Part shown: piece by piece, positions 4,938 to 11,860 of the stretch
Layout of the letters: every line of letters begins with the position of its first letter
Position numbering within the stretch: the stretch's first letter is position 1
Origin: Brevibacillus sp.
GTDB taxonomy: Bacteria; Bacillota; Bacilli; Brevibacillales; Brevibacillaceae
Direction of reading: 5' to 3'
NCBI GenBank assembly: GCA_017656235.1
Contig: JACDOF010000002.1
Coordinates: 1 to 64,000 of the forward strand
Length of the DNA stretch: 64,000 bases
Position numbers and translations under genes: made by a program
Notes under the pieces: model-generated
The model's database searches: none
What the model was told of the DNA's origin: nothing
The model's input: the letters and a program-made list of their open reading frames with translations, nothing else

Positions 4938-5240
4938 ATAAAAAAACCCTTTCGTCCAGCTATAAGGACGAAAGGGATTCTTTCGCGGTACCACCTTACT
5001 TGACGGCTTGCCAGCGCATGACGCTGACAGCCATCCGACTCTTCGCCGTTTTCGTTTGCTTGTGTGCAGCATGTGCAAAACGGCGCTTTCCTTGATAACA
5101 GGAGAAAGAAACCTGTCCAGGTCAACCCTGGCCGCTCCGGGATGGGTTCAAACCGTATCGTGGGCGGAACCTCCCAGCCGCTGGGTTCCGCTCTCTGAAC
5201 CAGAGGGACGGCTCTACTATTTCCCTTCACCGCGTTCACC
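4938..5240 (-). ncRNA. T-box leader (proline-type) of proBAC
   Basis: On the minus strand the T-box core AAGGTGGTACCGCG occupies 4997-4984. It is followed by a terminator with stem CCCTTTCGTCC / GGACGAAAGGG (4976-4947) and a run of Ts. Upstream, the stem I features AGTAGA and AGAGAG and the distal motif GCTGGGAGG are present. The specifier-loop strand reads GAACCCATCCCGGAG, so a CCC or CCA proline triplet is available. Known T-box logic would let uncharged tRNA-Pro stabilise the antiterminator and switch proBAC on. The exact specifier triplet is inferred. Confidence 0.9.
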
Positions 5241-6092: not shown

Positions 6093-6175
6093 AGAATTGA
6101 CGGCAGGTACATTATCCAACATGTGCACACATACCTATGAATCAAGAAAGACGGGAGAAAGAGGGAGGGTACTCG

Positions 6176-8584
6176 ATGCAACGAAACATTCGCAAAGCGG
6201 CAGTCCTTGGTGCAGGCGTGATGGGAGCGGGAATCGCGGCTCATCTGGCCAACGTCGGCATACCGACGTATCTTTTGGACATTGTCCCGCGTGAACTGAC
6301 CGAGGAGGAGCAGAAGAAGGGCTTGACGATGCAGGACCGCTCTGTCCGCAATCGTTTTGCCGCGGCGGGAAAGCAGCGGCTGCTCAAGGAAAAACCGGCT
6401 CCGCTCTACGACAAGGACGACATTGACCTCATTACCGTAGGAAACATGGAAGACGATCTCGATCGGCTGGCCGAAGTGGACTGGATCATTGAAGTTGTGG
6501 TGGAGAACCTGGAGGTAAAGCGGCAGGTATTCGAGAAGATCGAGGCGTACCGCAGACCGGGGACGATTGTTTCGTCCAATACTTCGGGCGTCTCCATCAA
6601 CGAGATGTGCGAGGGGCGTTCGGAAGAATTCAGGCAGCATTTTCTCGGGACCCATTTTTTTAATCCTCCGCGTTATCTGAAACTTCTGGAGATCATTCCC
6701 GGTCGTGACACCAAGCCGGAGATCGTGCAGTTCATGATGCACTTTGGCGAGTACATGCTGGGGAAAGGTACGGTCCTCTGCAAGGATACACCCAACTTTA
6801 TCGCCAACCGGATCGGTACGTACGGACTGCAGATATCCATCCAGGAGATGGTCAAGCTCGGTCTCGGCGTGGACGAAGTAGACGCACTGACCGGACCGGT
6901 GATCGGACGTCCCAAGAGCGCCACGTTCCGCACGCTTGATCTGGTTGGTCTGGACACCTACGTTCATGTCGCCAACAACGTGAAACAAAAGAGCGAAGAT
7001 GCAGAAGAAAAGGCTGTCTTTGAGGTGCCCGCCTTCGTTCTGGAGATGGTGGAGAAGCGCTGGATCGGGCAGAAGAGCGGACAGGGGTTCTTCAAGCAGG
7101 AGAAGACGGCAGAAGGCAAAGAGATTCTGGCCCTGGATTACACCAACATGACCTATCGCCCCCGCGTCAAGGCATCGTTTCCTTCGCTGGAAGCGGCCAA
7201 GACCGCGAAGAGCCTTCCGCAAAAGCTGCAGGCGCTGGTCTACGGCAAGGACAAGGGCAGTCAATTTGTCTGGAATGTACTGAAAAAAGTGCTGCTGTAC
7301 TCTGCCGCCAAAATACCGGAAATCGCCGATGACATCGTCTCGGTGGACCGGGCGATGAAGTGGGGTTTTGGCTGGGAACTGGGACCGTTCGAGACATGGG
7401 ATGCGATCGGAGTGGAGAAGTCGGTTGCCCGCATGCGTGAAGAGGGCGAGACGATTCCGCCGCTTGTTGAGGAGCTTCTGTCCAGCGGCAAAACGTCGTT
7501 CTACGACAAGCGTGAAGGTCTGCTCTCTGCCTTTGCGATTGGCGGAAAGTACAAAGAGGTGGAAGAGAAAAAAGAAGTGATCAATCTGGCCCAACTGAAA
7601 GAACAGGGACGCCTGATCAAGAAAAATGCGGGAGCGGCACTGATTGACCTGGGCGACGGCGTCGCCTGCCTGGAGTTTACCTCTCCGCACAATGCCCTCG
7701 GCATGGACGTACTGCAGATGGCCGGTTATGCGGCAGAAGAAGTGAAGAAGAACTTTATCGGCCTGGTCATTGGCAATCAGGGGAAAAACTTCTGCGTGGG
7801 CATGAACCTGGCGATGGCCTTGATGGAAGCGCAGGATGAGAACTGGTTTGAACTGGAGATGATGGTCAAGAACTTCCACAAGGTGGGCAGCGCGCTCCGT
7901 GCAGTCAACCGTCCGGTGGTGGCCGCACCGTTTGGCATGACCCTCGGCGGTGGTGTGGAAGTCTGCTTCCTGGCCGATCGTGTCCAGGCGGCGGCAGAAA
8001 CCTACCTGGGTCTGGTTGAGGTTGGAGTCGGTCTTTTGCCTGGCGGCGGCGGTACCAAAGAGATGCTGTTTCGGGCGATGGAAAACGTGCCGCAGGGCGG
8101 CAGTGTCCCGGTTGACCCGTTTCCGTTCGTGGCCCGCGCGTTTGAAACCATCGCGATGGCCAAGGTTTCTACCAGCGCCAAAGAAGCGATCAAGCTGGGC
8201 TACCTGCGTCCGACCGACCGGATCAGCATCAACAGCGATCACTTGCTCTACGATGCCAAACAATTGGTTCTGGAGATGGACAGGGCGGGCTTTGCGCCGC
8301 GAAAACCGCGCAGGATTCGCGTCATAGGCGAAACCGGTTATGCCACCCTTCGCCAAAATATTCACGCAATGCGGCTGAGCGGGATGATCAGCGAACACGA
8401 TGAATTGATTGCCAGCAAGATTGCCTACGTGATGTCCGGCGGCAGTGTGCCGGCAGGAACGGAAGTAAATGAAGAATACATCCTGGAGCTGGAGCGGCAA
8501 GCCTTTATGGACCTGATCAAGACGCCAAAAACACAGCAGCGCATGCAGCACATGCTGACCAAAAACAAACCGCTGCGCAACTAA
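6176..8584 (+). CDS. fadN: 3-hydroxyacyl-CoA dehydrogenase / enoyl-CoA hydratase, FadN type
   Basis: Large beta-oxidation protein of 802 residues. The N-terminal NAD-binding Rossmann motif LGAGVMGAGIAAHLAN (about residues 10-25) and the segment SSNTSGVSINEM belong to 3-hydroxyacyl-CoA dehydrogenase. After the dehydrogenase C-domain a crotonase-like region follows from about residue 500, with the oxyanion-hole segment NQGKNFCVGMNL and PFGMTLGGGVEVC. It therefore should hydrate enoyl-CoA and oxidise 3-hydroxyacyl-CoA. The ATG at 6176 is preceded by GGGAGGG; an upstream in-frame ATG at 6137 lacks a site. It is first in fadN-fadA-fadE, the order known in Bacillus, with FadR and CcpA sites upstream. 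Confidence 0.95.
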   Translation: MQRNIRKAAVLGAGVMGAGIAAHLANVGIPTYLLDIVPRELTEEEQKKGLTMQDRSVRNRFAAAGKQRLLKEKPAPLYDKDDIDLITVGNMEDDLDRLAEVDWIIEVVVENLEVKRQVFEKIEAYRRPGTIVSSNTSGVSINEMCEGRSEEFRQHFLGTHFFNPPRYLKLLEIIPGRDTKPEIVQFMMHFGEYMLGKGTVLCKDTPNFIANRIGTYGLQISIQEMVKLGLGVDEVDALTGPVIGRPKSATFRTLDLVGLDTYVHVANNVKQKSEDAEEKAVFEVPAFVLEMVEKRWIGQKSGQGFFKQEKTAEGKEILALDYTNMTYRPRVKASFPSLEAAKTAKSLPQKLQALVYGKDKGSQFVWNVLKKVLLYSAAKIPEIADDIVSVDRAMKWGFGWELGPFETWDAIGVEKSVARMREEGETIPPLVEELLSSGKTSFYDKREGLLSAFAIGGKYKEVEEKKEVINLAQLKEQGRLIKKNAGAALIDLGDGVACLEFTSPHNALGMDVLQMAGYAAEEVKKNFIGLVIGNQGKNFCVGMNLAMALMEAQDENWFELEMMVKNFHKVGSALRAVNRPVVAAPFGMTLGGGVEVCFLADRVQAAAETYLGLVEVGVGLLPGGGGTKEMLFRAMENVPQGGSVPVDPFPFVARAFETIAMAKVSTSAKEAIKLGYLRPTDRISINSDHLLYDAKQLVLEMDRAGFAPRKPRRIRVIGETGYATLRQNIHAMRLSGMISEHDELIASKIAYVMSGGSVPAGTEVNEEYILELERQAFMDLIKTPKTQQRMQHMLTKNKPLRN

Positions 8585-8592
8585 CGCGACAA

Positions 8593-8856
8593 GGGCACCT
8601 GGATCTGGCTCGAGCAGGATGCCAATTCGACGTAGTACTCGCCAGAACGAAGCACCCGCAGGGCACCTGGATCTGGCTCGAGCAGGATGCCAATTCGACG
8701 TAGTACTCGCCAGAACGAAGCGCCCGCAGGGCACCTGGAACTGGCTCGAGGAGGATGCCAATTCGACGTAGTACTCGCCAGAACGAAGCACCCGCAGGGC
8801 ACTCGGATCTGGCTCGAGCAGGATGCCAATTCGACGTAGTACTCGCCAGAACGAAG
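8593..8856 (+). repeat. Four tandem 68-bp repeats between fadN and fadA
   Basis: Units start at 8593, 8661, 8729 and 8797. The first three are 68 bases long; the fourth is 60 bases and ends by merging into the fadA ribosome-binding site. Units differ from the first at only one or two positions, and the core from GATGCCAATTCG to GAACGAAG is identical in all four. Each contains CTCGAG and AGTACT and could form a modest bulged hairpin (GGC..GAG with CTCGCC). The period is not a multiple of three, so no repeated peptide is coded in one frame. The repeats fill nearly all of the 283-base gap inside the operon. Confidence 0.95.
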
Positions 8857-8867
8857 GAGGAGAGAGG

Positions 8868-10046
8868 ATGAGAGAAGCAGTGATTGTGGCGGCCTCGCGC
8901 ACGGCAGTCGGCAAAGCGAAGCGGGGCAGCCTGAAAGATGTCCATCCGGTGGACATGGGTGCGGCCGTCGTGCAGGACCTGCTGCGCCGTCTGCCCGCAC
9001 TCGATCCGGCAGAGGTTGAGGATGTAATCATCGGCACCGCTGTACCGGAAGCGGAGCAGGGGATGAACATGGCGCGGCTGATCGGGCTGCGTGCCGGTCT
9101 GCCGACCAATGTATCGGGGATTACCATTAACCGCTTTTGTTCGTCCGGTCTGCAGACCATCGCATATGCCGCGCAGCAGATCATGGTCGGCGGTGCAGAC
9201 GTGATCATCGCGGGCGGTGTGGAAAGCATGAGCCTGGTCCCCATGCTCGGTCACAAGGTGGCACTCAATCCCACATTGGTGGAGACGATGCCGGATGCGT
9301 ACATGAGCATGGGCCACACGGCAGAACAGGTAGCCAGCCGCTACAACATTTCACGCGAGGAGCAGGACGCCTTTTCGCTGGAAAGTCACCGTCGGGCTGG
9401 GGCTGCGATCAAGGAAGGCAAGTTTAAAGAGGAAATCGTTCCGATCACGGTGAAGCGGCATCACGTTGATGAAGAAGGCAAGCTGCACGTGAAAGAAGCC
9501 GTCTTTGACACAGATGAGGGCGTTCGCTTTGATACCTCGATGGAGAGCCTGGCCAAACTGAAACCGGTGTTTCACGTCAAGGGGACGGTGACCGCGGGCA
9601 ACTCCTCGCAGACCAGTGACGGAGCGGCCGCTGTGGTGGTGATGTCCGCGGAGAAAGCGGCGCAGCTCAATCTGAAGCCGATAGCCGCCTTCCGTTCGTT
9701 TGCCGTGGGGGGCGTTGATCCCGACGTCATGGGTATTGGCCCGGTGGTGGCGGTTCCCAAGGCGTTGAAGATGGCTGGCGTTGCGCAGGACGATATTGAT
9801 CTGATCGAACTGAACGAGGCGTTTGCCTCTCAGTCAGTGGCTGTGATTCGTCAATTGGGCCTCGATCAGGCCAAGGTAAACGTAAATGGTGGTGCGATTG
9901 CGCTTGGGCACCCACTCGGCTGCACCGGGGCGAAGCTGACCGTGACCCTGCTGCATGAACTGAGGCGCCGCCGCGGACGGTACGGTTTGGTAACGATGTG
10001 TATCGGCGGCGGCATGGGTGCAGCCGGCGTGTTTGAAATGCTGTAA
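8868..10046 (+). CDS. fadA: Acetyl-CoA C-acyltransferase (3-ketoacyl-CoA thiolase)
   Basis: Thiolytic last step of beta-oxidation: it cleaves 3-ketoacyl-CoA with CoA to acetyl-CoA and a shortened acyl-CoA. The 392 residues carry the nucleophilic cysteine in [10 protein letters not shown] (near residue 90), the histidine in [15 protein letters not shown], and the second cysteine in [12 protein letters not shown] at the C-terminus. This is the complete thiolase triad. The ATG at 8868 follows AAGGAGGAGAGAGG, whose first bases are the tail of the last 68-bp repeat, so translation starts directly at the repeat border. It is the second gene of fadNAE. Confidence 0.96.
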
Positions 10047-10081: not shown

Positions 10082-11860
10082 ATGACGGAAACGAAAAAAC
10101 TGGTACGCGGCGGCAGTTTTTTGATTGACGCCGGCTCTCCCGACGATGTATTTACGCCAGAGGAGTTTACCGAGGAGCAGAAGATGATTGCCAAGACGAC
10201 GGAAGATTTCGTCGTCGGCGAGGTGCGTCCTCACCTGGAAGAGATTGAAAGCCACCAATTTGACATTTCGGTGCGACTGCTGAAGGAAGCGGGAGAGCTG
10301 GGCCTTTTGGGGGCCGATGTTCCGGAAAAATACCAGGGACTCGGACTAGACAAAATCAGTTCTGCCCTGATTGCGGAAAAGTTTTCACTGGCTCGCAGCT
10401 TTGCCTTGAGCTACGGCGCGCACGTGGGGATCGGATCGCTGCCGATCGTCTACTTCGGCAACGAAGAACAAAAGCGGCGCTATTTGCCTGATCTCGCTTC
10501 TGGCAAGCGGATTGCCGCCTACTGCCTGACTGAACCGGGTTCGGGTTCGGACGCATTGGGGGCGAAGACAACGGCCCGCCTGTCGGAAGACGGCAAGCAC
10601 TACATTCTCAATGGAGAGAAGCAGTGGATCACCAATGCCGGATTCGCGGACGTGTTTATCGTTTATGCCAAGATTGACGGCGAGCACTTTACCGCCTTTA
10701 TCGTGGAACGCGATTTCCCGGGTGTCTCGTTTGGAGCGGAAGAGAAGAAGATGGGAATCAAAGGGTCTTCTACCCGCACGGTCATTCTGCAAGACGTGCC
10801 GGTCCCGGTCGAAAATCTGCTGGGCGAACCGGGCAAAGGCCACGTCATCGCCTTCAACATCCTCAACGTCGGCCGCTACAAACTGGCGGTGGGAACGGTG
10901 GGTTCGGCCAAACATGCGCTGCGGCTGGCGACCACTTACGCCAAGGAGCGGAAGCAGTTTAAAACGGCGATTGCCAACTTCACGCTGATCAAGAACAAGC
11001 TGGCCAACATGGCTGCCAAAGTGTATGCGGCTGAGAGCTCCGTCTATCGCACCGTCGGCCTGTTCGACGCTTCCCTGTCCCTGTTGGGTGACAAGGCGGA
11101 CGACGGCCGGGAGGTGGCCAAGGCGATTGCCGACTACGCCATCGAATGCTCGATCAACAAGGTATTTGCTTCGGAAGTGTTGGACTACTGTGTGGATGAA
11201 GGGGTACAGATCCACGGCGGTTACGGCTTTATGTCAGAATACGAAATCGAAAACATGTACCGCGATTCGCGCATTAACCGGATCTTTGAGGGAACGAACG
11301 AAATCAACCGCCTGCTGATCCCCGACATGCTGGTGAAAAAGGCAATGAAGGGTGAACTGCCATTGATGCAGGCAGCCGCCGGTCTTCAGGAAGAACTGAT
11401 GAGCTACTATCCGGCAGAGATTGAAGAAGCGCCGCTGGCCGAGGAAAAGCATCTCCTGGACATGACGCGCAAAATCATTCTGATGGTGGCCGGATCGGCG
11501 TTGATGAAGTACCAGCAGGCCATTGCCAAGGAGCAGGAGCTGCTCGCGATCGCTGCCGACATGTTGATTGAGCTGTACGCGATGGACAGTGTGGTCAAGC
11601 GCACGGAGAAAGCCATCGCCAAAAACGGCGTGGAAAAAGAGCGGCAAAAGCTCGATCTGACATCCGTCTATGTCCATGAGGCATTTGACCGGATTGAAGG
11701 GTGGGCCAAAGAAGCTTTGGCAGCGATGGAAGAGGGTGACGACCTGCGGCTGCGTCTATCCATTCTGAAAAAACTGACCCGCCGCAATCCGCTGAACACG
11801 ATTCACCTGAAGCGTACCATTGCCGATCGGGTGATCGAGGCGGATGGGTACGTCGTATAA
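10082..11860 (+). CDS. fadE: Acyl-CoA dehydrogenase, FadE type
   Basis: FAD enzyme for the first oxidation of acyl-CoA to enoyl-CoA. It has 592 residues, with the usual three acyl-CoA dehydrogenase domains in the first ~400 and an extra helical C-terminal extension of ~190 residues, as in Bacillus FadE (YusJ). Seen motifs: CLTEPGSGSDALGAKT (FAD and substrate site near 150), IHGGYGFMSEYEIENMYRD and the base-bearing region RIFEGTNEINRL. GGAG precedes the start. It is the last gene of the operon, 35 bases after fadA. Electrons would pass to an electron-transfer flavoprotein, which is not coded in this window. Confidence 0.95.
   Translation: MTETKKLVRGGSFLIDAGSPDDVFTPEEFTEEQKMIAKTTEDFVVGEVRPHLEEIESHQFDISVRLLKEAGELGLLGADVPEKYQGLGLDKISSALIAEKFSLARSFALSYGAHVGIGSLPIVYFGNEEQKRRYLPDLASGKRIAAYCLTEPGSGSDALGAKTTARLSEDGKHYILNGEKQWITNAGFADVFIVYAKIDGEHFTAFIVERDFPGVSFGAEEKKMGIKGSSTRTVILQDVPVPVENLLGEPGKGHVIAFNILNVGRYKLAVGTVGSAKHALRLATTYAKERKQFKTAIANFTLIKNKLANMAAKVYAAESSVYRTVGLFDASLSLLGDKADDGREVAKAIADYAIECSINKVFASEVLDYCVDEGVQIHGGYGFMSEYEIENMYRDSRINRIFEGTNEINRLLIPDMLVKKAMKGELPLMQAAAGLQEELMSYYPAEIEEAPLAEEKHLLDMTRKIILMVAGSALMKYQQAIAKEQELLAIAADMLIELYAMDSVVKRTEKAIAKNGVEKERQKLDLTSVYVHEAFDRIEGWAKEALAAMEEGDDLRLRLSILKKLTRRNPLNTIHLKRTIADRVIEADGYVV

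Follow-up and report, generated by a model that had tools for sequence, protein, structure and literature searches.

What are the four almost identical 68-bp units that separate fadN from fadA in this Brevibacillus sp. operon, and do they act on fadA? The window, i.e., the whole 64,000-nt stretch of DNA that was analysed, carries on its forward strand a fadN-like gene for a 3-hydroxyacyl-CoA dehydrogenase/enoyl-CoA hydratase (6179–8584 by NCBIfam and ORF, with a start at 6137 also possible). It is followed by fadA, encoding an acetyl-CoA C-acyltransferase (8868–10046; NCBIfam NF005805, above cut-off), and by a fadE-like acyl-CoA dehydrogenase gene as the third gene of the operon (10082–11860; Pfam). 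TRF detected a single tandem array in the 64-kb window, located at 8592–8856 (+) with a period of 68, 3.9 copies, 95% matches and 0% indels. The earlier note had described near-identical 68-bp units that occupy the whole space between fadN and fadA up to the AAGGAGG of the latter, and both TRF and the sequence itself agreed with this. Its view that the array is neither CRISPR nor a peptide repeat was also borne out: the units run head to tail with no spacers, a period of 68 shifts the frame, and the forward strand has in-unit stops. Two minus-strand ORFs across the array (266 and 139 aa) were taken as spurious. Elsewhere in the window, RF00230 gave a T-box leader-like match of 56 bits (E 1.9e-10), which falls short of the gathering score of 93, on the minus strand at 5027–5239; the minus-strand ORF downstream of it resembles glutamate 5-kinase (proB).

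The four units show 0–2 deviations each from their consensus, and all were matched on the forward strand by R1, a covariance model of the unit. The match to unit 1 (8580–8649, 51.2 bits) starts in the region of the fadN stop codon; this unit lacks part of its left end and begins 7 nt past the TAA (8582–8584). Unit 2 (8650–8717, 75.9 bits) consists of a small hairpin followed by long inverted arms, and unit 3 (8718–8785, 65.9 bits) is joined to unit 4 (8786–8853, 76.6 bits), in which the covarying helix 2 is made of a 5′ arm CTGGC (8809–8813) and a 3′ arm GCCAG (8845–8849). Unit 4 leads directly into AAGGAGG (8854–8860), the Shine–Dalgarno sequence (SD) of fadA, with 7 nt between it and the ATG (8868). 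This SD is the gene-side boundary of the array, and the empty sites of relatives keep it without the array. Unit 4 also contains an ATG (8823) in the reading frame of fadA, from which the protein would be 15 residues longer; the corresponding ATG is mostly missing in other genomes. The draft assembly has 31 contigs, and the array is internal to one of 277 kb, so the count of four units might be an assembly error. That the array as such is an assembly artefact is extremely improbable, despite the draft state of the genome, given like arrays in the single-contig genome G001 and in the near-complete G025 and G002. Because single-contig relatives carry arrays of 3–7 units, this type of array is real.

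The array proved to be one expanded site of a dispersed family of 66–70 bp repeats that is found in Brevibacillaceae and has relatives among other Bacilli. The 68-mer was checked genome-wide by BLAST, which found no further long copy in the array's own genome; the covariance model added two single diverged copies at protein genes and one copy in a tRNA cluster. When the array was compared with 59 relatives, long diverged matches were obtained at several loci, both inside and outside the genus. The matched loci held further tandem arrays with units of 67–69 bp, and every array ended in an SD. R1 matches were present in 32 of 39 genomes of the family and, in a sample of the class, in 15 of 118 genera, with 1 to 7 units per site across the family. 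A degenerate-pattern scan of genome contigs gave Brevibacillus thermoruber 423 as the only named genome matched, from which we infer that the bacterial family of these genomes is Brevibacillaceae. The array was unmatched in an Rfam scan over its region of the window, the repeat unit was unmatched in plasmid and phage collections, and the literature searched held no account of a Brevibacillus repeat of this kind; the family is thus apparently undescribed so far. These data define a small interspersed structured repeat, with dispersed copies and conserved inverted arms, non-coding and with no enzyme of its own.

We were particularly interested in where the units lie relative to genes. A total of 47 protein-gene sites were read, some weak R1 matches, mostly near contig ends, being left aside. 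At 43 of these, the units ran in the sense direction of the following gene, whose start codon lay shortly after them. The last unit ended 6–19 nt before the start codon at 42 of the 43 sense sites (10–15 nt at 37) and directly adjoined a purine-rich SD at these 42; one site, L094, counts only with a TTG start. At the remaining sense site, L118, the script chose a TTG at 0 nt, and the likelier start is a GTG 18 nt on, behind AAGGGG. The four sites that were not counted are L102, whose array is cut by a contig end, L103 and L133, with weak or unclear matches, and L054, which belongs to another family and lies at the end of a contig, with no gene identified there. At roughly half of the sites, the array left little of the gap between the previous stop codon and the SD free. 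The previous gene was more than 100 nt away in at least 12 sites, indicating that the anchor is the SD and not the operon gap. The downstream genes were rplQ, sucB, yhbH, secA, amaP, surE, whiA, mnmG, rplI and ilvD, and further pyrF, ectA, yqfC, the gene of a B12-dependent ribonucleotide reductase, mnmL/ytqA, hbd, a response regulator gene, fadN and fadA; HMM searches identified the product as the B12-dependent ribonucleotide reductase at L044/L047 and as AmaP at L043/L093. No common pathway was visible among the genes at the sites read.

The remaining matches of the family were located in tRNA clusters, where two types of site were found. In type 1, the element follows tRNA-Asp, -Val or -Gly (L107, L108, L109, L114, L119, L121, L146 and others) after which the 3′ part of the tRNA, from T-loop to CCA, recurs as a closing copy that begins 126–141 nt downstream. 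An 18-nt copy of the tRNA 3′ end was present in 26 gaps, two or three of which contained Bacillaceae-1 RNA or other sequence in place of the unit. Bacillaceae-1 RNA (RF01690) lies at 706–771 and 1049–1114 of L151, between a tRNA (Asp, Lys) and the duplicated 3′ end of the same tRNA. In type 2, the element follows tRNA-Met in the opposite orientation, and the last 7 nt of the tRNA are repeated, mostly 64–69 nt downstream (19 gaps). Elements of the L107 type also carry a 5′ segment, GGGATC (Val) or GGTCTC (Gly), complementary to the copied T-arm strand GATCCC or GAGACC. In L109 (about 2060–2350), the whole unit, tRNA 3′ copy included, starts repeating past tRNA-Asp, which resembles the tyrT repeats of E. 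coli. In other Bacilli (L157 and L154), the tRNA-type unit was seen in tandem, with every copy ending in the last bases of the adjacent tRNA (GCAACCA, GCACCA).

Comparison of filled and empty sites was informative on the age of the arrays. The fadN-fadA gap measured 6–30 nt in 22 of 25 relatives, with little beyond the SD inside. G001 had one degenerate unit in this gap and G015 a partial unit; in G025 and G030, only the 3′ arm of the unit was left before the SD. The gap of G002, a sister species, contained a different 18-bp tandem repeat, TCATCTTGGCGGATACCC (L045, 1232–1281). The rpoA-rplQ gap was empty in some genomes (20–43 nt) and carried 1–3 units elsewhere; in further Brevibacillus it contained a hairpin built on this plan but more diverged. 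In all these cases the SD was the same and the spacer similar. The RplQ query used here, whose C-terminal half came from general knowledge of L17, served only to locate the loci, and the gaps were read from the DNA. Copy number therefore varies between species, in line with the earlier note, with 0, a remnant, 1 degenerate unit or 4 units in the fad gap and 0–3 units in the rpoA-rplQ gap (one genome per species). Units of one array shared an identity of 0.92, against 0.72 for a locus compared across genomes, 0.67 for different loci in a single genome and 0.63 for pairs sharing neither. That identity is highest within arrays, and then at the same locus, indicates old sites which were expanded and homogenised in place. 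Such site-wise inheritance shows most sites to be old, and recent movement was accordingly not seen.

Taken together, we favour, with a probability of about 0.6, that the family is a MIRU- or BOX-like interspersed repeat which entered at SDs and tRNA ends and spared them. Single elements would have inserted at an SD or a tRNA 3′ end, and since the functional sequence would be left intact, insertion would be nearly harmless, as with MIRUs (mycobacterial interspersed repetitive units) at start codons. Direct repetition would then have allowed slippage or unequal recombination to expand and homogenise the array in place. However, the exact abutment on the SD in one orientation would also fit a cis-acting RNA leader under selection. 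Such a leader would be a folded unit before the SD that is recognised by a ribonuclease, a protein or a ribosome standby mechanism and sets the stability or translation of the downstream cistron, with tandem copies amplifying the effect. Both the recognition and the effect on the cistron appear rather unlikely to us. Points in favour of a leader are the strict position and orientation before SDs, the covarying arms, the fact that many genomes have a related but more diverged hairpin ahead of rplQ, and the occurrence in tRNA operons, where RNA is likewise processed. On the other hand, orthologous sites are often without the unit, and the downstream genes have no pathway in common. In their G-U content, the arms also differ from real RNA stems. 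The five-base arm pairs change together (CTGGC/GCCAG, GTGGC/GCCAC, CTCGC/GCGAG, CTTGC/GCAAG and others), with standard pairs in 96% of arm cells, and this covariation exceeded all 500 shuffles and all slid controls. At protein-gene sites, the arms had 2 G-U versus 411 Watson–Crick pairs, compared with 154 versus 1600 in the tRNA stems of the same loci; the short GC-rich 5-bp arms by themselves also disfavour G-U, and the alignment behind the arm pair counts had been fitted to the covariance model. The fold was no more stable than shuffled sequence on the mRNA strand (mean z −0.11) and slightly better on the opposite strand (−0.56). Covariation by Watson–Crick pairs almost exclusively, with an mRNA-strand fold close to shuffled, points to selection at the DNA level; the arm complementarity is thus probably selected or maintained there, with a possible RNA role beside it.

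If the repeat entered at these sites, the question arises of how it moved. Tentatively, the family might be mobile DNA that targets functional RNA boundaries, i.e., SDs in mRNAs and, in tRNA genes, the T-loop or CCA end, with the entered site restored. No transposase or recombinase linked to the repeat was found. The conserved GTAG beside palindromic arms and the short conserved flank (AAG) at both unit ends would suit a REP-like hairpin mobilised by IS200/IS605 or RAYT, but a PF01797 gene is missing in the element-rich genomes G000, G001, G002, G027, G007 and G004. This absence largely refutes such an enzyme as the present mover, an ancient one being possible, and the REP-like origin is very improbable.

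The insertion of a repeat that spares its site would have limited consequences for fadA. The earlier note had considered that copy number could alter mRNA folding or the FadN:FadA ratio by slippage, a form of phase variation in this operon. Tandem repeats whose copy number differs between species speak for such a mechanism. However, the predicted unpaired fraction of the SD was 0.80 without the array and stayed at 0.64–0.65 with 1 to 6 units, so that SD access is not predicted to depend on copy number. The fold of the array on the mRNA strand was no better than that of shuffles (z +1.0), and no promoter-like or terminator-like site was present in it. Moreover, the same family precedes the SDs of dozens of unrelated genes and is not confined to contingency genes, so the array is not a device specific to fad. 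Slippage-driven phase variation of FadA is therefore quite unlikely. Insertion would have lengthened the fadN-fadA gap from about 12–30 nt to 283 nt, and because a longer distance means weaker coupling, the array most likely loosens the translational coupling of FadN and FadA, with the SD of fadA itself retained. No strong or switch-like effect on fadA is to be expected.

If the favoured reading holds, ribosome-binding sites and tRNA ends serve these interspersed repeats as anchor points, with a precision of nearly one base, and the repeats follow a common target logic of entering conserved functional sequence and leaving it working. The natural arrays of 1–7 copies before the same SD would make their effect on coupling and mRNA processing testable in culturable Brevibacillus.

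Several known systems share features with the Brevibacillus family. REP/BIME elements with RAYT have a palindrome with a GTAG tetranucleotide, but their Y1 transposase (Y1_Tnp, PF01797) is absent from the six element-rich genomes checked. The E. coli tyrT repeats, or rtT RNA, lie in tandem after a tRNA gene and include the tRNA 3′ end; they are not known before the SDs of protein genes, and no rtT match was obtained in the Rfam scans. Bacillaceae-1 RNA (RF01690) is similar in length (about 67 nt), in its two hairpins and in its place after a tRNA with a duplicated 3′ end (L151). Its sequence is distinct, however: the units were unmatched even though RF01690 matches neighbouring sequence in L151, and Rfam detected no RF01690 in G000. 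The BOX elements of Streptococcus pneumoniae, also a member of the Firmicutes, are dispersed structured repeats whose boxB is a tandem module of variable copy number (PMC3049150). The boxA-boxB(n)-boxC order is absent from Brevibacillus, where arrays consist of one unit type running to the SD; BOX is enriched between convergent genes, whereas the Brevibacillus units adjoin SDs in sense. MIRUs insert at start codons, have an internal ORF coupled to the gene, and have been proposed to have little effect (PMC12548453). No sequence relation between MIRUs and the Brevibacillus unit was shown, and in place of an ORF overlapping the downstream start, the 66–70 bp unit has an in-unit stop (GTAG); an ATG occurs within the unit in only some sequences, and no ORF is conserved. 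The likeness lies in short repeats, tandem at some sites, that stand in one orientation exactly at the downstream translation start, and 43 of the 47 sites have a repeat of 40–100 bp, in sense, where the following gene has its 5′ end. In Brevibacillus, the boundary is the SD, and tRNA 3′ ends form a second class of sites.
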